DNA from: a virus
Strand: one strand, 5' to 3'
Virus record (IMG/VR): IMGVR_UViG_3300045957_000043
Span: 1-56,144 of that record
DNA length: 56,144 nt
The position numbers and the translations under genes were made by a program. Positions 1,701 to 53,314 of this stretch are shown here, piece after piece (position 1 is the first letter of the stretch; each line of letters begins with the position of its first letter). Below the pieces are notes generated by a model, which was not told the origin of the DNA, made no database searches, and was given only the letters and a program-made list of their open reading frames with translations.

Positions 1701-1976
1701 GTGAAAAAGCGATACCAAGTTTACGTGGACAGAGGCAACGGTCTAGAGCTTGACGGTTGTTGGGGCAGCGAAGAAGCGACCAGCAACAACCGCAAAGAAT
1801 GCGAATTTTTCGCGCGGGGATCGCATCGTGACTACCTCGACTGCGCGTGGGTAGTCTACGACGAAAAAGCACGGGAAGAGGTCTACCGAATTGAATCGAA
1901 GCCGGCACCGACCGCCCTGGGAATTCCGTTGCCGTTGCCGTCGCGACTAGGAACAACAGCCCCGCAGCGGCGCTAA
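1701..1976 (+). CDS. Hypothetical protein with charged/aromatic core
   Basis: 91 residues from GTG at 1701, beyond the hairpin. Codon use is even, and residues 1-60 (YQVYVDRGNGLELDGCW... AWVVYDEKAREEVYRIE) look like a small alpha/beta domain. The tail is Pro/Arg rich and may be disordered. Its stop overlaps that of the leftward gene ending at 1973 (convergent ends). It lacks the GAAAGGCTAGA leader, so it may be separately expressed. No family is recognised. Confidence 0.55.
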   Translation: MKKRYQVYVDRGNGLELDGCWGSEEATSNNRKECEFFARGSHRDYLDCAWVVYDEKAREEVYRIESKPAPTALGIPLPLPSRLGTTAPQRR

Positions 1977-2320
1977 ACTTGCTCACCTAGGTACCGTCCG
2001 TGTGTAGTCTCGCCTGTGATGTGGTCTTTCGTGTAGATACCACGGGGTGAGCAATGATAGGTTTTAACCTGCTGGTCTAGGTTTAGGTTTTCAGACTGCC
2101 ATACTCTAACGCGGAGTATCCGCAACGCTGTAACCAAGACTTGCTTTGCAGACTTTGCTCTACACTGCAGGTTGTTTAGTTCTACGCGCGTTTGTGTCGG
2201 GTTGTGCGTGAGCACAAACTCAAAGCTTGGCGAGTTAACCAGCCCGCCGCCTGCTTGCGGGCCGGTACGCTTGACGTACTCGACCGAAACGTCTTTTAGA
2301 AACGTCTTTAGATCGGTCAT
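1973..2320 (-). CDS. Last gene of the DUF6745 cassette, unknown function
   Basis: 115 residues from ATG 2320, preceded by AGGT at suitable spacing and separated by 9 bases from the upstream stop at 2330. The middle (FEFVLTHNPTQTRVELNNLQ) and end (YHCSPRGIYTKDHITGETTHGRYL) suggest a small beta-rich domain. No motif is recognised. Position at the end of the cassette implies it works with the DUF6745 and QL-repeat proteins or with the 132-residue protein before it. Confidence 0.7.
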   Translation of the reverse strand: MTDLKTFLKDVSVEYVKRTGPQAGGGLVNSPSFEFVLTHNPTQTRVELNNLQCRAKSAKQVLVTALRILRVRVWQSENLNLDQQVKTYHCSPRGIYTKDHITGETTHGRYLGEQV

Positions 2321-2329
2321 AGTACCTCG

Positions 2330-2728
2330 TCAATCCCTTGCGCGGCGAAGCTCGTCCGCAAACGCCCGCTCGTAAGTAATTCCGTAGCACCCTGGGCCGA
2401 GCAGCCAATCACCGTGTTCCGGGTGGGTTACGGTCACCGGTTCGGTCACACGCAGGCACGGCCCGGTAAGAGCGCCGTTAGATCGCGTGAAATATTCGAC
2501 GCGATCGTGGCTCAGAATGTGACGGCTGCCCTTTGTGGTCCCCGGCGCAAGTTGTAACTGCACTAAAGCGGGTTTTCCTTCTGGTTCAGCGAGTTTGTGA
2601 ATTAACACGTCGCCTTGCCGCACGTACTCACCGACAGACGCGGCTACGGGAAACTCCTGTAGATCGTCGCAGCGGATTGCTTCGAGGCTTTCGCGAATAG
2701 ATTTAAAAACTTGGGCTGCACTTGGCAT
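2330..2728 (-). CDS. DUF6745-neighbourhood beta protein (GDVL...HPEHG type)
   Basis: 132 residues with an AGGAGA Shine-Dalgarno before ATG 2728. The sequence shows RQGDVLIHKL (about residue 37), then TKGSRHIL, LTGPCLRV, VTHPEHGDWLLGPGCYGITYER. From memory this layout (GDVLL, GEATGHaH, HEEH, LpPGxYxVxxQREY) matches a small, widely found protein often encoded beside DUF6745 genes. The first histidine motif is altered here (TKGSRH), while the HPEHG and PGxYxIxYER parts are intact. Probably a cupin-like or beta-sandwich fold of unknown biochemical role. Its presence supports reading this region as a conserved cassette. Confidence 0.7.
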   Translation of the reverse strand: MPSAAQVFKSIRESLEAIRCDDLQEFPVAASVGEYVRQGDVLIHKLAEPEGKPALVQLQLAPGTTKGSRHILSHDRVEYFTRSNGALTGPCLRVTEPVTVTHPEHGDWLLGPGCYGITYERAFADELRRARD

Positions 2729-2743: not shown

Positions 2744-2941
2744 TTAAATGGTACCCAGATCGTTTCGTAACTGGCTGTCTAGCTGACTGCGGAGCTGGTT
2801 GTGGAGCTGGCTGCGGAGCTGGTTGTGGAGCTGGCTGTAGAGCTGGCTGTAGAGCTGGCTGTGGAGCTGGCTTTCGAGCTGGCTGTAGAGCTGGCTGTAG
2901 AGCTGGCTGTGGAGCTGGTTGTGGAGCTGGGTGCCTATCAT
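2744..2941 (-). CDS. Free-standing QL tetrapeptide-repeat protein 1
   Basis: 65 residues built almost entirely of (S/N)-Q-L-x tetrads, with x being His, Tyr, Glu, Arg or Asp. There are about 14 tetrads and Leu falls exactly every fourth residue. Start ATG 2941 overlaps the DUF6745 stop (ATGA), which fixes this frame among the several that the 12-base repeat leaves open. In DUF6745 family proteins elsewhere, equivalent QL repeats lie inside the protein, so this looks like that segment encoded separately. A continuous amphipathic helix with a slowly drifting Leu stripe is expected. Function is unknown. Confidence 0.7.
   Translation of the reverse strand: MIGTQLHNQLHSQLYSQLYSQLESQLHSQLYSQLYSQLHNQLRSQLHNQLRSQLDSQLRNDLGTI
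2780..2932. repeat. 12-bp tandem repeat (GAGCTGGCTGTA-like), locus 1
   Basis: Degenerate 12-base unit, GAGCTGG(C/T)TG(T/C)(A/G)G on the plus strand, repeated head to tail. Because 12 is a multiple of 3, every frame stays open. This creates spurious Val-Glu-Leu-Ala, Gly-Ala-Gly-Cys and Pro-Gln-Pro-Ala readings beside the real QL frame. Such arrays are prone to slippage. Confidence 0.85.
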
Positions 2942-3750
2942 GATGCACCGACGCACTTTCCGTCTGGCGCGTTTCGCACCCAAGACTGAGCCTCGCCGCA
3001 GGTCGAGACGCCTTGCGGTACTTCCAAGAAGTACACACGGGCGGTCGACGGGCACCCGCAGACCAGCACCCGAATTCCTTCGCACTCAAACAATGCTTCT
3101 TCAGTCGCCTCGATGTCATTCCGGCGCCGGTCTAAAACTTTCGCGCGGGTGGCTTTCAGAAACTTGTCCCAGCCGTACCGCTCGATCGCAATCCGGCGGA
3201 CCTCTTCGCTGTCTTCGGCTCTGATCTGCGCCACGGTTAGCGTCTCAGGTCGCATAACGATCTGCTCGGTGACACGAACCCCCGAAATCGAGTACACTCC
3301 CCAGCCGTCCCTGAATCGCACAGATGGCCCTGTATCGCAATGCAGCTCGCCAGCCTGCCAGTGTACCTCTACCGGCCTCCGAGAGACTACGGGGCTGTCT
3401 GAGAGGGCTACAAACGGACATTTCCAGCACCACTGATCAAAAGCCTCTAAAGTCTCCGAATCGAACTCTACGCCGACCAACTCGGCGCCGCGATACCACC
3501 CCGCCCACGCGGACCACCACCAGGACGCATAGTAGGGCACGTCGCCGGCGAGCCGCATCGCCGCGAGCGGCGAATCAGCCACGCGAACTTTCGGGCGGGG
3601 GTGGCCGAACCTCGCCCACATATCGCCCAGAGCTTCCGCAATCTCCGCGTCGGTGTACTGCTCGGTCTGCCTCGCGAGCCACGGGTCTTTGAAGCGTTCA
3701 ACTTGTGCCCACTGGCGGGAGGTTAACGACTCGATTCGTTGGCTGACCAT
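2938..3750 (-). CDS. DUF6745 domain protein
   Basis: 270 residues; ATG 3750 has AGGAGA upstream. The N-terminal 70 residues end in DSPLAAMRLA, the point where family members normally enter their QL repeat. Here the sequence jumps straight to YYASWWWSAWAGWYRG. The C-terminal part carries the family signature: RRPVEVHWQAGELHCDTGPSV, RDGWGVYSISGVRV, EEVRRIAIERYGWDKFL, then the TARVYFLEVP strand. This is established as a domain of unknown function from family memory. It is unusual here because the QL segment is absent and is supplied by separate genes on both sides. It is coupled to QL protein 1 by an ATGA overlap. Confidence 0.85.
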   Translation of the reverse strand: MVSQRIESLTSRQWAQVERFKDPWLARQTEQYTDAEIAEALGDMWARFGHPRPKVRVADSPLAAMRLAGDVPYYASWWWSAWAGWYRGAELVGVEFDSETLEAFDQWCWKCPFVALSDSPVVSRRPVEVHWQAGELHCDTGPSVRFRDGWGVYSISGVRVTEQIVMRPETLTVAQIRAEDSEEVRRIAIERYGWDKFLKATRAKVLDRRRNDIEATEEALFECEGIRVLVCGCPSTARVYFLEVPQGVSTCGEAQSWVRNAPDGKCVGAS

Positions 3751-3772
3751 TCTGAAGTCTCCTGTAGATCGG

Positions 3773-3931
3773 TTAGTAGCTGATTGTGAAGCTGTCGTCG
3801 AGCCGGGTGCAAAACCTAAAGTCGCCGATGGGTCGGGTACCCTCCGAAACTGACGACCGGAGAAGACCGGTGAGATGCTGGGTAAACTGCTCGTGAAGCT
3901 GTTTTTCCAGATAGCGGGGCGAGATCACCAT
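3773..3931 (-). CDS. 52-residue cassette protein
   Basis: ATG 3931 has a strong GGGAGG 8 bases upstream, inside the end of QL protein 2, whose TGA it overlaps by 7 bases. The product (ISPRYLEKQLHEQFTQHLTG... DFRFCTRLDDSFTISY) is charged and not repetitive, though its N-terminus still contains KQL and EQF spacings like a decayed QL repeat. It may be a former linker between repeat and domain. No family is recognised. Confidence 0.6.
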   Translation of the reverse strand: MVISPRYLEKQLHEQFTQHLTGLLRSSVSEGTRPIGDFRFCTRLDDSFTISY

Positions 3932-4143
3932 TGCAAGTCCTCCCGGAGTTGGCTGTCGAGCTGGTTGCCGAGTTCGCTTTCGAGCTGGTTGCCGAGCTGG
4001 CTGCGGAGCTGGCTGTGGAGCTGGCTGTAGAGCTGGCTGTAGAGCTGGCTGCGGAGCTGGCTGTGGAGCTGGCTGTAGAGCTGGCTGTAGAGCTGGCTTT
4101 CGAGCTGGCTGCAGAGCTGGTTGCTGAGCTGGTTCGCGTTCAT
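3925..4143 (-). CDS. Free-standing QL tetrapeptide-repeat protein 2
   Basis: 72 residues starting at ATG 4143 with GAGGG 8 bases upstream; a TTG at 4161 is less likely. It consists of about 16 S-Q-L-x tetrads with x = Tyr, His, Arg, Cys, Gly or Glu, flanked by a short MNAN start and an REDLQW end. It is close to QL protein 1 in sequence and nucleotide repeat, implying duplication. First gene of the leftward cassette; the promoter should lie just right of 4143. Confidence 0.7.
   Translation of the reverse strand: MNANQLSNQLCSQLESQLYSQLYSQLHSQLRSQLYSQLYSQLHSQLRSQLGNQLESELGNQLDSQLREDLQW
3950..4130. repeat. 12-bp tandem repeat, locus 2
   Basis: Same unit as at 2780-2932, here about 15 copies with GAGCTGGCTGTA and GAGCTGGCTGCG variants. 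The two arrays flank the DUF6745 gene in the same orientation, so recombination between them would delete it. Confidence 0.85.
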
Positions 4144-4316
4144 AGTCAAGACCCTCTTCAAGCTGACTGCGGACCATACTACCGCCAGCCTATCAGAACG
4201 TCAATAGACGTCCGTCCATTTTCTTAGACTCTCGCAGGGGGTTTTACTCGCGACGAACCACGGGCGGTTCCCGCCGTGTTCGCAGGGGGTTGAAAGTCAG
4301 AAAACGCGCTAAAGGC

Positions 4317-4859: not shown

Positions 4860-7100
4860 TCAGATTGTGCTACGTGCGACCCACTGTTTCGGCGGCTTAA
4901 AGTCTGGCATGGCCAGCACCGTCGGGGGCCGCCCCGGTCCCGCTGCGGGCGTGAGATACGCAGCCACTTCCCCGCGTTCAAGCAGACGCAGGACCGCGTG
5001 TTTGATCTTCTTGTGGGCCAGCGTCGTGCTGCGATAAATCTGAGTGAGGCTCTTCGGCTCGTCGGCTAATTGCCGCAGGACGGCACTGGTGAGCTGCTCT
5101 TCGGCTCTGTCTTCGTCTGACGCGATCGTGGCTGCTTTGACGAGCATATCCTCGACAGCCTTCAGGCGGTCCACTACGACGCTGTGAGCGGCCTTAAGAT
5201 CGCATTCTTCGACCTGGAACCCCTGGTCTAGGTTTCCCCAGCTGCGGCTCAACGCGAACAGCAGCGCGAGTTTCTGGATGTGCAGCACCGCGCGAACCCA
5301 GATCGTAGCTCTTACGTTGTTGCCGGCTTCCCGGTCGTCCCGCACTCTGGAATCAATTGCGCGACGGTATTTGCTGAGCAGCTGCCGGCCTTTGGGGCTG
5401 TAGTGTATTGTGCGCGGCTGGTCTAATAGCAAAAGCTGCTTAGCGAACGCGAGTAAAGCTTCCGGGACGGGAATAAACCCGATACTCTCGTCAGCTAGGT
5501 CTACATGCGGGATCTCGAAGACTAAAATCCTGGAGAGAAACCCGTCGATAGATAGCCCTGTGTTTACAGCCGGCCAGAAAGTCTCGGGGGTACTTGCGCC
5601 CTGGACGATCACCCGGGGATTAGTGCACGAGACTTGTTTGCCGTCAGCGTAAGTCTTTCGCACGTGGTCGGTGCTGTACAGTTCCATGAGCGTAACAGGG
5701 AGCGCCGCTAGATGCTGGCTGTTTGAGTTCGCGCGGAGTTTGCCGCCGATCTCGTCGATCTGCAGGAGCACCCCTGGGACTTGCGCGGCGATTGCGACAG
5801 CAGCCTGCGCGCTGGCTACGTCGGTGTAGACTAAGCCGTTAGCGCCGGCTTCGAACATTAAGCTCTGTACGCTTTTGCGGGTGTGCTCTTTGCCACCCCC
5901 GGACGCGGCTAAATTCACAGTAAACAGCCTGAGATCAATCCGGTCTTGCTTGATCGTGCGGCAGCCGAGCGAAGCTAACGCTGTGATCGCTGCAGAGAAC
6001 GCGAACTGCTCGTGCGGCCTGGGCGCCGTCTGCATGTAGTAGTTCATGAACTCCGAGATAAACCCCGGCACCCAGAAATCCACGACCCCCTTGCCTGCTC
6101 CTGCTCCCGCTCCCGGCTCGGTGTTCCCGCTCGGTGGCGCGGGGAGCACTCCTGTAGGCTCGTAAATACAGTCTTCCGCTTTGGCCAGGGCTTGCAGGCT
6201 TCGGTGCATGTCGACTTGCTCGTTTAACGGCGGCTCTTCATGAAATAACTCACGGATAGTCCATTTACAGCTTGCATGGAGACAAGATCCCGTGAGCTTG
6301 CCGTCGGACTGCAGACACACCGAGCACGAGTTATCCCCGACGTGCCTCGGACTGGTATTCTGGGGATTATCTGAATACTCTTTGCAACAGTGAGCTTGCT
6401 TGAATTTCCAGATATAAGCCCCTGAGCCCCAGACTTCCCGTGAAGACTCGATGCCTAGTTCTTGGAGCTTGACTTCGCAGTACAAAGCTTGCTGGCGGAC
6501 CAGCTCGGGGTTACTAACTGCGGGTTCCTGGACTTCGCGCGGTTTATTCCCGGCGATCGCGTGCTGTGAGACCCACTCTAGAAACTCATCTACACATTGC
6601 GATGGGTGGCAGGATTCTGGAGTGCCCAGTAAATCTTCGTTTAAGTCAAACGGCTGATAGGTATTCGCGCAGAACCTACCGGAAGTATTCGCGTAGATTT
6701 CAAGAGTCACGCCACCCGGTAGCTCGTATTTGCCGGAATACTGGGTGTTAGTCTCTGTGTAGCCTAAGAAATGCAGTCCCTTGCCCGAGCAGCTGCGCTC
6801 GCAGAAAGTATCTTTCAGCAGCTCGCAGACCTGCCTGTATTTTGGGTTTAGCTCGCCGGAGTCTAGAAAGACATCTGAGTCTAGGTCTATTAAGACTAGT
6901 TTGTTTTCGCGGTTGCAGTAACACCCTGTGGCGCCACTACACTGTGGCTTAGTCTGAGAGTATTCCTGCGCGAGCTTGTACGAAGTTAAGCCTTGCGGGT
7001 AGCCTTTTGATGTTCCGGTTTTTGGGTTGATCGCGAGTTTGGGATTTTTCTTAGATACCGGCAGGTGACAGTCGAGTTCGCGTAGGTCAACAGCAAGCAT
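4860..7100 (-). CDS. Primase-polymerase / DUF3987 helicase-like replication protein
   Basis: 746 residues. Start ATG 7100 has AGAGGGG at good spacing; an in-frame ATG at 7169 lies across the terminator hairpin and is rejected. N-terminus resembles a PrimPol: LVLIDLDSD gives acidic D72/D74/D76, and SGKGLHFLG places His110. Next comes a Cys/His-rich patch (about residues 245-300, with CSVCL and SCLHASC) like a zinc-binding linker. The C-terminal half matches DUF3987: a P-loop AASGGGKEHTRK near 400, Walker B LLQIDEIGG near 447, then GASTPETFWP and DGFLSRILVFE. Expected to prime and unwind phage DNA. It is the last gene of the replication operon. Confidence 0.85.
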   Translation of the reverse strand: MLAVDLRELDCHLPVSKKNPKLAINPKTGTSKGYPQGLTSYKLAQEYSQTKPQCSGATGCYCNRENKLVLIDLDSDVFLDSGELNPKYRQVCELLKDTFCERSCSGKGLHFLGYTETNTQYSGKYELPGGVTLEIYANTSGRFCANTYQPFDLNEDLLGTPESCHPSQCVDEFLEWVSQHAIAGNKPREVQEPAVSNPELVRQQALYCEVKLQELGIESSREVWGSGAYIWKFKQAHCCKEYSDNPQNTSPRHVGDNSCSVCLQSDGKLTGSCLHASCKWTIRELFHEEPPLNEQVDMHRSLQALAKAEDCIYEPTGVLPAPPSGNTEPGAGAGAGKGVVDFWVPGFISEFMNYYMQTAPRPHEQFAFSAAITALASLGCRTIKQDRIDLRLFTVNLAASGGGKEHTRKSVQSLMFEAGANGLVYTDVASAQAAVAIAAQVPGVLLQIDEIGGKLRANSNSQHLAALPVTLMELYSTDHVRKTYADGKQVSCTNPRVIVQGASTPETFWPAVNTGLSIDGFLSRILVFEIPHVDLADESIGFIPVPEALLAFAKQLLLLDQPRTIHYSPKGRQLLSKYRRAIDSRVRDDREAGNNVRATIWVRAVLHIQKLALLFALSRSWGNLDQGFQVEECDLKAAHSVVVDRLKAVEDMLVKAATIASDEDRAEEQLTSAVLRQLADEPKSLTQIYRSTTLAHKKIKHAVLRLLERGEVAAYLTPAAGPGRPPTVLAMPDFKPPKQWVARSTI

Positions 7101-7122
7101 CGCAGCCCCTCTAAACAAAAAC

Positions 7123-7156
7123 AATGCCGCCTGCAAAACTGCTTGCAAGCGGCATT
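7123..7156 (-). terminator. Terminator upstream of the PrimPol gene
   Basis: AATGCCGC-TGCAA (7123-7136, one bulge) pairs with TTGCA-GCGGCATT (7143-7156). On the minus strand the stem is followed by GTTTTTGTTT. It separates the small genes at 7192-8294 from the PrimPol gene, which may allow differential expression. Confidence 0.7.
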
Positions 7157-7191
7157 TAAGTATACCCACCCTGTGATTAGGCAGTCACCGT

Positions 7192-33955: not shown

Positions 33956-34147
33956 ATGAACCGAGTTTCCGAGCCGCAGCTTGAACACCAGATACAAACC
34001 ATCGAATCGCGTCTGCACGCAAGTTTGGTCCCTAGCGGGTTTAGAGAGACCGTTGTTGCCGAAAGACTTCTTAACAGCCTGATGCAAGCGGCTTACCCTG
34101 TCCACAAAGAACTGCAAGCCCTGTTGGTCGATCATGCTAACGAGTAG
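33956..34147 (+). CDS. Small leader gene of the methylase unit
   Basis: 63 residues from ATG 33956 (EPQLEHQIQTIESRLHASLV... LNSLMQAAYPVHKELQALL), helical and coiled-coil-like. It overlaps the methylase start by 14 bases. No clear ribosome site. It may mainly couple translation to the methylase. Confidence 0.5.
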   Translation: MNRVSEPQLEHQIQTIESRLHASLVPSGFRETVVAERLLNSLMQAAYPVHKELQALLVDHANE

Positions 34148-34934
34148 CAAACCCCTAAAGTGGCACGGCGGCAAACACTATCTCGCTCGCAAAATCATTG
34201 AGCTAATGCCCTCACACGTCCACTACGTGGAGCCGTTTTTCGGTGGTGGGAGTGTCCTTTTCGCGAAACCCTACGAAGGCGTCAGCGAAGTGATCAACGA
34301 CCGCAACGACGAGCTGGCTAACTTCTGGCTGGTTTTGAGCGACCCGGATCTGTTTGCTGACTTTCACCGCCGTGTGAGCGTTCTGGGCATGTCCGAAACC
34401 CTCTGGAAAACTGCCTGGGAGGGGTCTCCCGTGAAGCGAGCGGTTGCGTTCTTTGTGAAGTATCGGCAGAGCCGGCAAGGGCTTGGCAAAGACTTTGCAA
34501 CGCTGTCTCGCAATCGCACGCGGCGCGGGATGAACGAACAGGCTTCTAGCTGGCTCTCAGCAGTCGAAGGGCTGCCGGAAGTGCATTCCAGATTGCAACG
34601 AGTTGTCGTGCTCAACCGCGATGCCCTTAACGTGATCCACCAACAAGACGGTGAGCAAACGCTCTTCTACCTCGACCCCCCGTATTTGCACGAAACCCGT
34701 GTAACAACTAACGAATACGGCGAGCACGAGATGGTCCGCGAGGACCACGAAAAGCTACTAGAGCTGCTTCTCCAAGTGCGGGGTAAATTCCTGCTTTCAG
34801 GCTACCCGAGCGAGCTGTACGCTCAGTTTGCGACTGAAGGCAACTGGCGGCGGGTCGACTTTGAGATCGACAACAAGGCCAGCTCACGAGCCCGCAAGCC
34901 CCGCGTCACCGAGTGTGTCTGGCTAAACTACTGA
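34134..34934 (+). CDS. dam: DNA N6-adenine methyltransferase, D12/Dam class
   Basis: 266 residues. N-terminal PLKWHGGKHYLARKI and YVEPFFGGGSVLF form the S-adenosylmethionine site. LFYLDPPYLHE is the catalytic D-P-P-Y motif near residue 180. The order of motifs matches Dam-type enzymes. Target is probably GATC by family, but specificity is not visible. It may protect phage DNA from host restriction or mark packaged DNA. It is the only rightward unit inside the virion block. Confidence 0.9.
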   Translation: MLTSSKPLKWHGGKHYLARKIIELMPSHVHYVEPFFGGGSVLFAKPYEGVSEVINDRNDELANFWLVLSDPDLFADFHRRVSVLGMSETLWKTAWEGSPVKRAVAFFVKYRQSRQGLGKDFATLSRNRTRRGMNEQASSWLSAVEGLPEVHSRLQRVVVLNRDALNVIHQQDGEQTLFYLDPPYLHETRVTTNEYGEHEMVREDHEKLLELLLQVRGKFLLSGYPSELYAQFATEGNWRRVDFEIDNKASSRARKPRVTECVWLNY

Positions 34935-36137: not shown

Positions 36138-36986
36138 TTATTCGACTCGCTCTTCAGCCGTGCGAATATTACTTTGGTCAGCGATTATCGCTAGACCCTC
36201 CGAAAAAGTGGCCCCTTTAATCGCGGCGATTCTCGCGCAGTTCGCGACTTGCAGGGGTCTGATTGAAGCATTGGATACCCATGCACCATAGCTGTCAACC
36301 GTGCCGACGACTTCGCCGGTCTCTGCAATGATCACTTGGTTGTCTCGAAAAGCAAGCGACGGGCGATCTGTGCAAGCTTCCTCACGCCAGCCGAACGGAT
36401 ATCTCCGTGCGATCTCCAGCGAATCCCAAGCACCTAGCGTTCGCAAGGGTTGGCCGAAACTAAACGTAGGCTCCATCAGGTTTGTTCGCCCACCGGTTGG
36501 CGCGTGTGACAAACCGATTGCGTGCATCGCTTCATGCAAAAACACATTTGCAAAGTCGTCTGTTGTCCAGGCTTCTTCGTTGTCAATCTCGATCCGCCCG
36601 ACAACGCCGCCGACGTTTAGCTCTTCGCCGCGAGCCGGCTGCCATGCTTGGCCGAGCACTCCGAGCCTGCCGTCAAGCCGTTTAAAGACTACACGGATAT
36701 TACCGTTCACGCTGACTTCTCGGAAACTCAAGTCTCCGTGTAGAGTGATTAACGCGAAAGCCCTGTGTATCCCCGCGTAGGCATCTTCCTGTGATAGCAC
36801 CCCGTTTAGTCCTGCGAAGTTCACGCTCCAGGTGATCACTGGGTTCGTGTCGTTCACAAACCACCTGAGCCCCTGACCAGGCGCTTCAGCCGTGGCCGTC
36901 GCCGCGAGTACGCTTTGCGTCGCCCATTGTTTTTCAGAGGGTTTTGCACAGCAGTCGACAGCTTGTCCGGGGTTTCGTTTAGCCAC
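36138..36986 (-). CDS. Matrixin-type zinc metalloprotease
   Basis: 282 residues from GTG 36986 (GGAG 8 bases upstream, overlapping the glycosidase stop by 8 bases). HEAMHAIGLSH gives the full matrixin site H151, E152, H155, H161. LMEP (Met171) is the Met-turn. The propeptide-like N-terminus contains a CC pair that might act as a cysteine switch. The C-terminal 80 residues form an extra beta domain. Possibly virion-borne, for degrading surface matrix. Confidence 0.85.
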   Translation of the reverse strand: MAKRNPGQAVDCCAKPSEKQWATQSVLAATATAEAPGQGLRWFVNDTNPVITWSVNFAGLNGVLSQEDAYAGIHRAFALITLHGDLSFREVSVNGNIRVVFKRLDGRLGVLGQAWQPARGEELNVGGVVGRIEIDNEEAWTTDDFANVFLHEAMHAIGLSHAPTGGRTNLMEPTFSFGQPLRTLGAWDSLEIARRYPFGWREEACTDRPSLAFRDNQVIIAETGEVVGTVDSYGAWVSNASIRPLQVANCARIAAIKGATFSEGLAIIADQSNIRTAEERVE

Positions 36987-38358
36987 AGAAGTACTCCACA
37001 GATTCAGTCCAGCGAGGATACCCCGGTGAATCGAGTTCGTGCGACTTGAAGCCGAACGCATCGTCAGTACCGCAGCGGCGATACAAGGTGTGGTAGCCAG
37101 GGAAGTTAGCCGCGATATAAGTCAGCCAGTCCGCCCAGAACGCGCCGGCTTCTGGTCCGTTACTGATTGCAGCTAAGTTTGTGTCAATCGGCCCGTTGTC
37201 GTTTCGGTTAAGCGAAAAGCCAGTCTCGTAGAACCAAATCGGCAAGCCTGAGCTAGATGCGTAACCCTGCCACGTCGCCAAGTGCGGCAGCACTCTCGTG
37301 TCGCGGTCGTCTTCGCACGCGGTGATCGCTTCAGCTGGCGTCGACGTGGCTGTCGCGGTATTTGTCGCCCAGGTCTGACCAAAATACGGCGCGACCGCCA
37401 TTGCATCCAGAAACGTTCCGGGTCGCGTGCGACCTGACACGGCTTGGTTGTAGGTATTCGGCACGCTGAGCCAAGCACCCCACACACCGTAGATATCTAC
37501 GCCCGGCATCGTCGTCTTGAAAATCTCGGCGGTCCTGTCGCTGCGGTCCCAGCTGTAAGCAGCAATGCGGGCTGTGTCGCCGGCGCCAGCGTAGCCCGAC
37601 GCGGCAGCGGTATTCGTGCTCCAGTTTGCCGCAAACGAAGAGTTCCAGTTTTCGTTACCCCACTCAACGATCAACGGTGTAGTCGGGCCGGCAGCCGCGT
37701 ATTCGTTCGCGACTTCCTGGATAATCGTGTCGTTCCATGTGCAGTGGATGTTAATCCACGGTACAGTCCCAGTCTGGTTCGAGATGTCTACGATGTCAGC
37801 CGGCGTGATCATTCGCCGAATGAACTGGTTCGCGCCCGTGGGCGTCGGGTAGAAAACCCATCGCTGGCTAGCAACTGAAGTACGCGGCTGAAAGTTAGTA
37901 AAGTGCGCGTTCATGTACCGCACGACACAGGCGTTCTGCACGTCGGCAAGAAAAGTCGGCGTCCAGTTGTCGGGGTCGCCGTCGCGCTTCAGACTAAACC
38001 CGGCTAGATCCCCGTCGAATTGCCAGTTAACGGTAGTGCTGCCTGCAGTAATCGTCTTTGTTGCGCCATTAGTTGAAGTGCCGGTGCCCGACCAAGTAGC
38101 TGTATAGTCGCCAGCTGGCCACGTGCGGCCCTGTCGCGCCTCGATATTGAGTTGGGTCGGCCCGGTAACCGGATAGCCAGTCGTCGGGTCGGTCGTCGCG
38201 GCGCCGATCGTGTGATAGAACTGCGAGTACTTGCCGAAGTCGTAGTGGATTCTTGAGGCAGAAAACGCGCCGGGTTCGGCGACGTTGAAACCTAGCTTGA
38301 ACTCGGGGTCTGGATCAGGGGGCGGATCGCCCGCACAGATCGGTTGGATGAACGCCAT
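36979..38358 (-). CDS. Glycoside-hydrolase-like virion enzyme (clan GH-A type)
   Basis: 459 residues. LIVEWGNENWN near residue 230 carries the N-E acid/base pair, and IWFYETGF near 372 places a second Glu as nucleophile, as in (beta/alpha)8 GH-A enzymes (GH39/GH79-like). The N-terminus has a beta domain (TATWSGTGTSTNGATKTI). No signal peptide, so it is probably a tail-associated depolymerase. Substrate unknown. Confidence 0.8.
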   Translation of the reverse strand: MAFIQPICAGDPPPDPDPEFKLGFNVAEPGAFSASRIHYDFGKYSQFYHTIGAATTDPTTGYPVTGPTQLNIEARQGRTWPAGDYTATWSGTGTSTNGATKTITAGSTTVNWQFDGDLAGFSLKRDGDPDNWTPTFLADVQNACVVRYMNAHFTNFQPRTSVASQRWVFYPTPTGANQFIRRMITPADIVDISNQTGTVPWINIHCTWNDTIIQEVANEYAAAGPTTPLIVEWGNENWNSSFAANWSTNTAAASGYAGAGDTARIAAYSWDRSDRTAEIFKTTMPGVDIYGVWGAWLSVPNTYNQAVSGRTRPGTFLDAMAVAPYFGQTWATNTATATSTPAEAITACEDDRDTRVLPHLATWQGYASSSGLPIWFYETGFSLNRNDNGPIDTNLAAISNGPEAGAFWADWLTYIAANFPGYHTLYRRCGTDDAFGFKSHELDSPGYPRWTESVEYFCG

Positions 38359-42213: not shown

Positions 42214-45030
42214 TTAAGGCCAGACCGGTGCTTTGTGTCCTTCACGCACACTGCACTGGATCGTGCCGTCGTACTCCACTCGCCAGCTCAGCACTACGCC
42301 TTTGGTGTTGTCATTAGTCAAGATCCAAGCCGGCACGTTCGGTGCGGTGTCCGCGTCCGGGCCGAAGTCCCAGAGGCTACCCCAAGCCGGCGGGAAACTT
42401 GAGCCTTGCACAAACACTTGTCCGCTGTCGCCCGGCGAAGCGTTCGTGAGATTCGCGACAGTTCTCCCGCCAGCCAAGAGTTGGGGCAAAAACGCTTGTG
42501 GGCCAAGCGACACGTCGTACACAATGCTCGTCTGTGTACGGTCCAAAACCTGATAGCTCGGTCCTGCCGCGACGCCGCCCGTATCACAACACAACTGCGT
42601 GACAGTCAGGCTACCGCTAACAGAGTCAATGCAAGTGTGATACTTGAGCGACAGAGCACCCGGAGACGTGTAAATCAAAATGTCGCCAGACTGTTGCGGC
42701 GAAGCATTTGCCGCGTACCAAACCAGAATCTCGTTGTTAGTCGGAGCTTCTGGATCGCCGAACGATAAACCGCCGCCCGAGTTATCAATCGTGTAGCACT
42801 TGTCTTTCGGCAGCGAGTGATACTCGCCGGCATCATCCGTGTAGCCGAGAATATTCCCGTTCGCCCCCGTGTTATCCGAAACGAGCGTGAACTCGCTTGC
42901 GGTTGTGCTCCACGTCGCGGGGTCAACAAACGGACCGGCAGCGGCTTGGTTAACGCAGCAAGCATCGAGTCCTGTTGTTTGGATCAAGCTGGCATTGCCG
43001 TCGTCGTCCACGAAGTACCGATAGGTAGTCCCGTCGCCGTGGTCGTACTCAAGGACTGTTGGCCCGGAAATATTCTGTGCAGTCACATAGCTTTCGGCTT
43101 CTGTGACAACCAGCGGACTTGTGAAGCTACCGCCGGGGACCGTAGCGATCGGCGAGAGACAGCCTTGGATCGCTGCGCAGATATCAACCGTGACTGTAGT
43201 GCCGTCACCGTCGTTATGCACAATGGTGCCGTCGGCTAAGCCGTTTGCGCCGGTGTTGTCTGTGAGTACAGAAACACTACCGGTATCTACACCTGTAGTC
43301 TGAATCAGGCTCGCGTTACCGTCGTCATCCACGAAGTACCGATAAGTAGTCCCGTCGCCGTGATCGTACTCAAGGACTGTTGGCCCGGAAATATTCTGTG
43401 CAGTGACGTAGCTCTCGGCTTCTGTCACGACAAGCGGACTCGTGAACGTGCCGCCGGGGACCGTAGCGATCGGCGAGAGGCAGCCCTGGATTGCCGCACA
43501 CACGTCTACCGTGACTGTAGTCCCGTCACCGTCGTTGTGCACAAACGTGCCGTCGGCTAAGCCGTTCGCACCAGTGTTGTCGGTAAATACACTGACGGCG
43601 CCCGAGCTGATACCTGTAGTTTGGATTAGGCTCGCGTTACCGTCGTCATCCACGAAGTACCGATAAGTAGTCCCGTCGCCGTGATCGTACTCAAGCACCG
43701 TCGGTCCAGAGATACTCTGGGCCACGACGTAGCTCTCGGCTTCTGTCACGACAAGCGGACTCGTGAACGTGCCGCCGGGAACTGTTTCGATCGGTGACAG
43801 GCAGCCTTGGATCGCCGCGCAAATGTCGATGGTGACCGTAGTCCCGTCGCCGTCGTTATGCACAATCGTGCCGTCGGCTAAGCCAGTCACGCCAGTGTTG
43901 TCGGTCACTACAGACACCGCGCCGGCGCCGCCGCCTACCGGGACAGAACCGACACAGCTCTCGGTCATGACCGTGATATTCAGGTTCACGCCGTCACCGG
44001 CAGCGGTCACGACTTGATCAGAAATCGAGCTACCTGCAGGCAGAATCTCGCCGTCCAAGATGCTCGTCATGTCGAGCCGCGTCTGGCCAGCCGGCAAAAT
44101 CCACGGGTCTGCTGGGTTGACTACGCCACCAGGACCAGGAAGCAGCGTCGCCGAGCCGGGGCTCGTACCCGCCGCGATCCACATGAGGTGGAACTCGATA
44201 TCGCTCGCCGAAGTGCCCGTAACTTCCGCCCAAGCGCCCACAATGGTCTCTGAGGTGTTCGGGTTGACCATCGTGGAGTCAGAAGGCGTCGGTACTGAAC
44301 CCGAATCAACCGTCACGCTGCCGACTTTACCGACGGTGGTTTTCGTCCGCATACACACGCCGGGCAGCGGGTGCTCAACGCCGTTTTCGTCGACGTAGCC
44401 TACAAGGTACTGCACGGTGTCGTCGGGATTCTCGTAGAAGACGAACGTGTGGTTCGCAGACGGATTGGCCGCTGTAGCGCCCGCCGGCCAAGTGGTGGGG
44501 TCGTTAACGTCAACTAGCCCGCCGACAGTTGCTTCGATAGTGAAGTCGCAGCAGTTCTCGCCCGGCACTCGTAGTACCGTGACGTTGCCGTCATCATCTA
44601 CACCGTAGCGATATAGCCCGCCAGAACCGTCGGTGTAATCGATAAATGTCGGGCCAGAAGGCGAGCCTGCAGCTGCGTACACCGCAGCCAGATCGAGCGG
44701 GTCAACCAGACTCCCGGTCGTTACTGTAGCGATCGGGTCAAGGCAGCCTTGGATCGCCGCGCAAATGTCGATGGTGACCGTAGTCCCGCCGCCGTCGTTA
44801 TGCACGATCGTGCCGTCAGCTAAGCCGTTTGCCCCGGTGTTGTCCGTAACTACACTAGTAGCTCCCGTCGCCGTGATCGTCACGCTCAACGGGTCACCGT
44901 TAGTCTGCTGCAGCGTTAGCAGGCCCGTTTCGCTGGTGTAAACTAGGTCTGTGTTGCAACAGCCGTCGCCGCCTCCCCCGCAAGAATGCGCAACGTAACT
45001 ACTGCCGGGGGGAATTTGTGAGCCTGCCAT
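42214..45030 (-). CDS. Repeat-containing tail fibre/structural protein
   Basis: 938 residues from ATG 45030 (GGAG upstream). The module TDNTGANGLADGT, VHNDGDGTTVT-DICAAIQGC, ISGPT-LEYDHGDGTTYRYFVDDDGN occurs about four times. Three copies are nearly identical at 107 residues (321 bases) and one is more diverged toward the N-terminus. Gly/Asp/Thr-rich, so a repetitive beta structure is expected. The last part (SYQVLDRTQTSIVYDVSLG) differs and may be the tip. Likely elongated fibre. Confidence 0.75.
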   Translation of the reverse strand: MAGSQIPPGSSYVAHSCGGGGDGCCNTDLVYTSETGLLTLQQTNGDPLSVTITATGATSVVTDNTGANGLADGTIVHNDGGGTTVTIDICAAIQGCLDPIATVTTGSLVDPLDLAAVYAAAGSPSGPTFIDYTDGSGGLYRYGVDDDGNVTVLRVPGENCCDFTIEATVGGLVDVNDPTTWPAGATAANPSANHTFVFYENPDDTVQYLVGYVDENGVEHPLPGVCMRTKTTVGKVGSVTVDSGSVPTPSDSTMVNPNTSETIVGAWAEVTGTSASDIEFHLMWIAAGTSPGSATLLPGPGGVVNPADPWILPAGQTRLDMTSILDGEILPAGSSISDQVVTAAGDGVNLNITVMTESCVGSVPVGGGAGAVSVVTDNTGVTGLADGTIVHNDGDGTTVTIDICAAIQGCLSPIETVPGGTFTSPLVVTEAESYVVAQSISGPTVLEYDHGDGTTYRYFVDDDGNASLIQTTGISSGAVSVFTDNTGANGLADGTFVHNDGDGTTVTVDVCAAIQGCLSPIATVPGGTFTSPLVVTEAESYVTAQNISGPTVLEYDHGDGTTYRYFVDDDGNASLIQTTGVDTGSVSVLTDNTGANGLADGTIVHNDGDGTTVTVDICAAIQGCLSPIATVPGGSFTSPLVVTEAESYVTAQNISGPTVLEYDHGDGTTYRYFVDDDGNASLIQTTGLDACCVNQAAAGPFVDPATWSTTASEFTLVSDNTGANGNILGYTDDAGEYHSLPKDKCYTIDNSGGGLSFGDPEAPTNNEILVWYAANASPQQSGDILIYTSPGALSLKYHTCIDSVSGSLTVTQLCCDTGGVAAGPSYQVLDRTQTSIVYDVSLGPQAFLPQLLAGGRTVANLTNASPGDSGQVFVQGSSFPPAWGSLWDFGPDADTAPNVPAWILTNDNTKGVVLSWRVEYDGTIQCSVREGHKAPVWP
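42971..43933. repeat. Three 321-bp tandem repeats within the fibre gene
   Basis: Units begin at 42971, 43292 and 43613, each opening CCTGT(T/A)GT(T/C)TG(G/A)AT. Landmark CACGAAGTACC recurs at exactly 321-base spacing (43009, 43330, 43651). Third-base differences show the copies are not brand new, while long identical runs suggest gene conversion. Confidence 0.85.
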
Positions 45031-53076: not shown

Positions 53077-53314
53077 TTCCGCACTGTTCTAAAGCTACTT
53101 CCGCAAAGCTAAAGCTAAGACTAAAGCTAAGACTAAAGCTAAGGCTAAAGCTAAAGCTAAAGCTAAAGCTAAAGCTAAAGCTAAAGCTAAAGCTAAAGCT
53201 AAAGCTAAAGCTAACTGGCTCGCTACCCGACACAGCAAACGTGTAGCCTGCGGGGCTGTTGGGGGTACACGCATAGTACCCTACTAGTGCAGTCTGGGCA
53301 ACGCAACACAACAC
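53015..53314 (-). CDS. Possible secreted Ser-Phe repeat protein
   Basis: GTG 53314 has AAGG 8 bases upstream, within a palindrome. The frame gives a signal-like start (LCCVAQTALVGYYACTPNSPAGYTFAV), then about 18 Ser-Phe/Ser-Leu dipeptides encoded by a hexamer repeat, then a short tail overlapping the next gene. Other frames are also open through the repeat, so the coding call is weak. If real, alternating Ser/Phe would make an amyloid-like amphipathic beta strand. Confidence 0.35.
   Translation of the reverse strand: MLCCVAQTALVGYYACTPNSPAGYTFAVSGSEPVSFSFSFSFSFSFSFSFSFSFSFSLSFSLSFSLSFSFAEVALEQCGSARETLRNSLQSLRLPGVSL
53105..53214. repeat. Hexamer microsatellite (AAAGCT)n
   Basis: About 18 hexamers, mostly AAAGCT, with interspersed AAGACT and AAGGCT variants at the left end. 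Reads Lys-Leu on the plus strand and Ser-Phe on the minus. Superficially telomere-like in period, but internal to the molecule. Confidence 0.85.

Follow-up and report, generated by a model that had tools for sequence, protein, structure and literature searches.

A phage DUF6745 module with separately encoded tetrad repeats and a hypervariable residue in the repeat unit

The tetrad-repeat arrays that accompany DUF6745 proteins in phages consist of a core that is kept nearly uniform within each array and a single residue, x, that is hypervariable; in several viruses these arrays are encoded as small separate genes rather than within the DUF6745 protein. One of these viruses is the subject of this analysis. 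The window, by which we mean the whole stretch of DNA analysed, is the 56,144-bp IMG/VR virus record IMGVR_UViG_3300045957_000043, and judged from its terminase, portal, tape measure, DNA polymerase, helicase and exonuclease genes its source is a tailed phage. Of the two results, the hypervariable x is the more interesting and the split the less so; selection for change at this residue points to recognition or conflict. Our preferred reading is a tentative one, to which we give somewhat less than an even chance: a split two-gene phage module in which the array would serve as a fast-evolving surface for binding, bringing DUF6745 and its partner to a changing target, with the arrays supplied in trans. 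DUF6745 is found in phages, plasmids and bacteria, yet its function is not known, and its repeated natural splitting offers an existing means of asking whether the array can be detached and act in trans.

The gene cassette of the window

The cassette is transcribed from the minus strand in the order QL-A, a 52-aa ORF, DUF6745, QL-B, a 132-aa gene and a 115-aa gene (Table 1). Two genes made of SQLx tetrads, QL-A and QL-B, can be read directly on either side of the DUF6745 gene in the same operon, one of them coupled through ATGA, as the sequence-only reading of this DNA had proposed. The start of QL-B overlaps the DUF6745 stop in a shared ATGA (2941-2938), and QL-A is preceded by a GAGGG Shine-Dalgarno-like site about 9 nt ahead of its ATG. 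The 12-bp arrays within the two genes reach Tandem Repeats Finder scores of 185-236, far above chance. The 52-aa ORF is coupled to QL-A through ATGGTGA and holds the degenerate tetrads EKQL HEQF TQHL TGLL; its sequence EKQLHEQFTQHLTGLL resembles decayed tetrads, and it is possible that the ORF is a decayed third QL gene, although a family search with it gave no match. Directly before QL-A, MVRSQLEEGLDYE is reminiscent of the end of a QL gene since lost, comparable to the LTEDLDDR ends seen in virus L070 (see below).

Table 1. Features of the window, with positions counted from its first letter
Feature	Position	Strand	Remarks
115-aa gene, downstream	1973-2320	-	Weak likeness to class-I release factor GGQ domain
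132-aa partner gene	2330-2728	-	QGDV...GSRH...HPEHG...D family; conserved DUF6745 neighbour
QL-B, free-standing SQLx repeat gene, 65 aa	2744-2941	-	ATG 2941, stop 2744
12-bp tandem array within QL-B	2771-2930		Tandem Repeats Finder
DUF6745 gene, 270 aa, no internal repeat	2938-3750	-	PF20530; AGGAG before ATG
52-aa ORF between QL-A and DUF6745	3773-3931	-	Read directly
QL-A, free-standing SQLx repeat gene, 72 aa	3925-4143	-	ATG 4143, stop 3925; end ...QLREDLQW
12-bp tandem array within QL-A	about 3945-4132		Tandem Repeats Finder
Stretch resembling a lost QL gene's tail	4141-4177	-	Directly before QL-A
Primase-like gene	4860-7169		Upstream of the DUF6745/QL cassette
D12-class adenine methyltransferase	34134-34934	+	Amid minus-strand genes
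M10 (matrixin) peptidase	36138-37061		
938-aa ORF	42214-45030	-	321-bp tandem repeat, 2.9 copies (42971-43914)
Hexanucleotide AAAGCT, about 18 copies	53105-53214		Inside open frames, both strands

The DUF6745 protein of the window matches Pfam PF20530 over residues 108-258 with 70.2 bits (E 1.9e-19; curated cut-off 27 bits); LH-x-x-x-GPS/A and EQIVMRPE are conserved stretches of DUF6745. The chain runs ADSPLAAMRLAGDVPYYASWWW with the repeat absent, and at the junction SPLAAMRLAGDVPYYASWWW no array separates the DSPLA motif from the W-WW region, so that the passage from DSPLAAMRLA straight to YYASWWW, noted earlier, is borne out by the sequence. It is a member of the Pfam family, but unlike most phage members it has no internal array, its array being encoded by separate genes. 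Two viral proteins (L050 and L083) and gp38 of Mycobacterium phage prophiGD102-1 are like it in the N-terminal region, the DSPLA-type motif and the C-terminal domain and carry an SQLx or G/DQLx repeat of the same kind, but fused in one chain. A literature search found no paper that mentions DUF6745 or the repeat strings searched, and PADLOC, which covers known anti-phage defence models, returned no match for the DUF6745, partner or 115-aa proteins of the window.

The sequence-only reading had named both the 132- and the 115-residue products as partners. The former stands as a conserved neighbour: with the window or L002 protein as query, a homologue was present beside DUF6745 in 13 of the 19 first viral loci, and the pair also occurs in Microcystis phage Ma-LMM01 (gp174/gp175) and in Streptomyces. 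Its conserved residues include QGD, G-[SA]-[RK]-H and H-P-x-H-G, as well as a C-terminal D. A QGDV/GHAH-type partner next to DUF6745 is a feature found here, outside Pfam's definition, and present in the window; the array is absent from most bacterial DUF6745/partner pairs. AlphaFold models the partner as a confident beta-rich fold (pLDDT 83) that has no match in the PDB, and in a viral fold library the model (md3671397ecd8) matched only uncharacterised proteins, including ones from Acidianus rod-shaped virus 2 and Sulfolobus islandicus filamentous virus 2. On plasmids of Streptomyces (L236, L239), DUF6745/partner pairs adjoin genes of the STM4014 and STM4015 families. The 115-aa protein does not qualify as a partner in the same way, since no homologue was found near DUF6745 in the other loci searched; its match to NCBIfam prfA is weak (E 0.0016), and where GGQ would stand it has GGG.

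Position of the array in relatives and recurrence of the split

Viral contigs were searched with only the DUF6745 protein as query, which carries no bias towards repeats; this gave 19 loci, 18 of them assessable. A long period-4 array lies between the DSPLA-type motif and W-WW in 11 of the 18, one (L002) is split, and six show neither state. The middle of bacterial DUF6745 proteins is mostly non-repetitive, with other sequence at the array site, and tetrads were present in 4 of 69 ORFs from a Streptomyces-weighted set and in three of nine matching genomes among 297 drawn evenly from one phylum. The earlier statement that the repeat normally lies between the DSPLAA-type and W-W/Y regions is thus valid for phages and does not extend to the family as a whole. 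Nor is the repeat always S-Q-L-x, as the motif varies by lineage (SQLx, ANLx, AATx, GAVx, ASVx and QVx), with SSLx and G/DQLx added by phage records. Two SQLx DNA patterns, one for each serine codon type and both allowing synonymous variation, retrieved 73 and 119 viral stretches, and most arrays with varied x among them fall inside DUF6745 proteins, in frame. A profile search of genome contigs that used EQIVMRPE only gave no match, and a second one with a Streptomyces protein as query yielded mostly repeat-less relatives. The DUF6745 gene of a Nocardia farcinica plasmid (L234, 739-1929) has a DQVx array that shifts frame midway, from GPGVGPGG to DQVRAQVG, and is perhaps a broken copy.

The 108 DUF6745 domains compared divide into 88 with internal arrays, 10 in the split state and 10 with neither; these proportions are biased to internal SQLx arrays, since the SQLx pattern had been used to retrieve many of the loci. 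On the tree of these domains, the split state needs at least four changes on the starred branches; the window has L002 as its sister, with modest support (84), and the L126 group, L070 and L149 are placed elsewhere. A change from internal to split would be the simpler reading of this unrooted tree. Repeat-less DUF6745 genes beside separate QL genes are found in the window, L002, L070 and L149, and in a group of near relatives that includes L126, L127, L133, L137, L143 and L227.

Split viruses carry between 2 and about 11 free QL genes each, and these are often translationally coupled or evenly spaced. The roughly 11 genes of L002 are chained through GTGAATAG. The eight of L070 show successive 11-base overlaps, with GGAGG ahead of each start and the common ends MTDEFETQL...LTEDLDDR, and the five of L149 overlap by 14 bases, start with MKSTREQL or MKPIKEQL and end in NNETD or KDEID. 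ATGA overlaps link the QL genes of L137, which have a common start, MKQINIQL, and a common end, LIDNII. A further record of 26 kb, 3300021124_000029 (L145/L161/L182), holds five free QL genes with the start MKQI(N/D) or similar. The search for other genomes with split repeats, which the sequence-only reading had called for, has brought further split viruses to light; the split is not peculiar to the window but is a variant, arising repeatedly, of a phage module that has not been described before. Neither this recurrence nor the hypervariable residue had figured in that reading.

Coding of the repeat frames and diversity of residue x

An open frame alone is no evidence of coding, because the 12-bp unit leaves several frames open. 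S-Q-L is, however, spelled by 21 different DNA cores across 61 arrays from other viruses. This argues for the SQL frame as the coding one, as do the in-frame arrays inside DUF6745 proteins and the nature of the free genes, which have Shine-Dalgarno sites or coupled starts and lineage-specific termini. The free QL genes of the relatives are very probably translated, and those of the window likely so; the doubt raised at the outset, that the repeat frames might not be translated, runs against all of these features. QL-A and QL-B found no significant match in Pfam or among protein families. Assignment to DUF826, DUF668 or other families was rejected, the weak Pfam matches being all below cut-off and confined to short stretches, and PDB sequence matches to the arrays (23fj chain R; 6su9) consist of GQMP and MNGH runs, a chance likeness of low complexity. 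A tblastn search with a QL protein, in which the query was in the wrong frame and low complexity was masked, gave no match.

The same observations bear on two explanations that give the peptides little or no role. A selfish or neutral minisatellite could grow by slippage or unequal crossing-over with little function, the free QL genes being recombination fragments; the 12-bp units, the rapid change in copy number and gene number, and the scattering of QL genes within one record would all suit it. We nevertheless think it quite unlikely, given that the SQL protein pattern is kept across 21 DNA cores, that the genes have coupled starts, Shine-Dalgarno sites and common ends, and that diversity affects x alone and draws on few residue classes. 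Alternatively, the arrays could act as DNA or RNA, for example as an array of binding sites, a recombination substrate or a transcript structure, with the peptides as by-products. Core DNA is indeed near-identical within an array, synonymous sites included, but the cores differ freely at synonymous sites between viruses, most phage relatives have the array in frame within DUF6745, and it is the first two codon positions of a single residue that vary, all of which makes such a role very improbable.

Diversity was measured as pairwise differences among units encoding SQLx, with the S, Q and L codons scored at their third positions and the x codon at positions 1 and 2 (x1 and x2). In 65 internal arrays the third-position mean is 0.014, exactly zero in 53 of the 65, against 0.635 at x1 and 0.418 at x2; the corresponding values for 23 free arrays are 0.046, 0.665 and 0.535. 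The signature is weaker in the window's own arrays than in relatives, with third-position values of 0.06 in QL-A and 0.19 in QL-B and x1 values of 0.69 and 0.71. From one array to another, these synonymous sites differ by 0.28-0.69, so no core codon is universally required, and the core is uniform within an array and not fixed to one sequence; since the search patterns allowed synonymous variation, the low core diversity was not built in. This uniformity presumably arises by recombination between units. The sites of a unit, all inside 12 bp, have a single history in common, and relaxed selection would therefore give a diversity at x similar to that at synonymous sites. The diversity at x is more than 20 times higher, which suggests that something selects for change at this residue. 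Most other cores tested (ANLx, SSLx, ASVx, G/DQLx) show the same pattern, G/D or A/D switching constituting a second variable residue; the GAVx array of L020 is looser and less clean.

The residues found at x are mainly aromatic, acidic, Arg or Gly. Where its codon ends in a pyrimidine, x is mostly Asp, Tyr, Arg or Gly, and where it ends in a purine mostly Trp, Glu, Arg or Gly, whereas Asn, His, Cys, Lys and Gln are rare although one mutation away. The counts in internal arrays are D 406 and Y 350 versus N 41 and H 47, G 154 and R 195 versus S 34 and C 12, and W 56 and E 37 versus K 7 and Q 0. No clear solenoid or helix period emerged when x was correlated with itself at successive lags in internal arrays (z ≤2.3).

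The arrays also turn over rapidly. L061 and L077, whose flanks are 94-99% identical in DNA, have 38 and 30 tetrads with a different order of x. The free QL genes number five in L137 and two in L227, viruses with 96.5% identity over a 3.8-kb stretch that extends into the array region. The near-identical viruses of the L143 group also have identical arrays, so the change is fast without being hypermutation on the shortest time scale.

A structural scaffold, of the kind put forward in the sequence-only reading, would account for some of these data: the tetrads would form amphipathic helical rods, or a multivalent sticker polymer of Tyr, Arg, Asp and Gly, giving a filament or condensate joined by DUF6745, and x would vary because many polar residues are tolerated there. 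The period of four with its strict Leu and the wide variation in array length among viruses agree with it, as do the two long helices that AlphaFold draws in the array of L050, although their pLDDT is only 40-70. The DUF6745 domain of that model is itself confident, and the DUF6745/array model found no fold match in the PDB at E ≤0.001. Residue x is rich in Gly, Asp and Tyr, with Ala, Lys and Glu nearly absent from internal SQLx arrays, which tells against the scaffold. Tolerance, moreover, predicts a diversity at x close to the synonymous level, far from the excess observed. We regard the scaffold as doubtful.

A changing binding surface and its likeness to known repeat systems

In the reading that we prefer, the module would comprise the DUF6745 protein and the 132-aa partner, with the array built in for most phage relatives and made in the window as small separate QL proteins from the same operon. 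Each unit would contribute three fixed residues (S-Q-L) and one hypervariable x; recombination between units would keep the fixed part uniform while selection diversifies x, and the array would bring the DUF6745/partner pair to a changing target, for instance a component of the host or of a rival phage. The split form would offer several interchangeable arrays in trans, which would dock at the site flanked by the DSPLA helix and the W-WW region. The idea of a changing binding surface comes from uniform units with few diversified residues, by analogy with PRDM9, and that of a changing target from the selection for change at x. That the free arrays could serve DUF6745 and its partner in trans is suggested by the usual internal place of the array, the free copies in the same operon and their translational coupling. 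Exposure of x and its contact with a target, docking of free arrays on DUF6745 and a role in conflict are what we infer from these patterns; docking is not assured, because in record 3300021124_000029 two of the five QL genes lie more than 10 kb from DUF6745. A bolder proposal, which we consider unlikely, is that the tetrad array represents a new class of modular recognition protein with one contact residue per unit and a small alphabet (aromatic, acidic, Arg, Gly), reprogrammed by phages through unit shuffling and mutation, the split form then being a library of free arrays that retargets a fixed DUF6745/partner effector. For a recognition array, a four-residue unit would be unusually small.

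Several known systems invite comparison. From the substitution pattern alone, a target of a diversity-generating retroelement was rejected, as the core adenines (CAG, AGC) are invariant and x2 is almost only A or G. Pentapeptide-repeat proteins are built of the unit A[D/N]Lxx, and the tetrads resemble them in having short units with fixed small, polar and hydrophobic residues, the ANLx arrays looking similar by eye; the tetrad unit has four residues (12 bp) and not five, and QL-A, QL-B and the SQLx protein L050 had no Pfam match to that family. The pattern typical of PRDM9- or TALE-like arrays, in which unit variation is confined to few non-synonymous positions and the rest is homogenised, is clear in the relatives and weaker in the window. 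In PRDM9 finger arrays, variation is mostly non-synonymous and located at the DNA-contact codons (PMC3890296). The PRDM9 zinc-finger minisatellite and the tetrad arrays have no sequence, unit length or fold in common, and DNA recognition is established for PRDM9 only; what they share, as an evolutionary likeness and not as membership, are homogenised units, non-synonymous variation at few positions and a varying copy number (PMC3890296).
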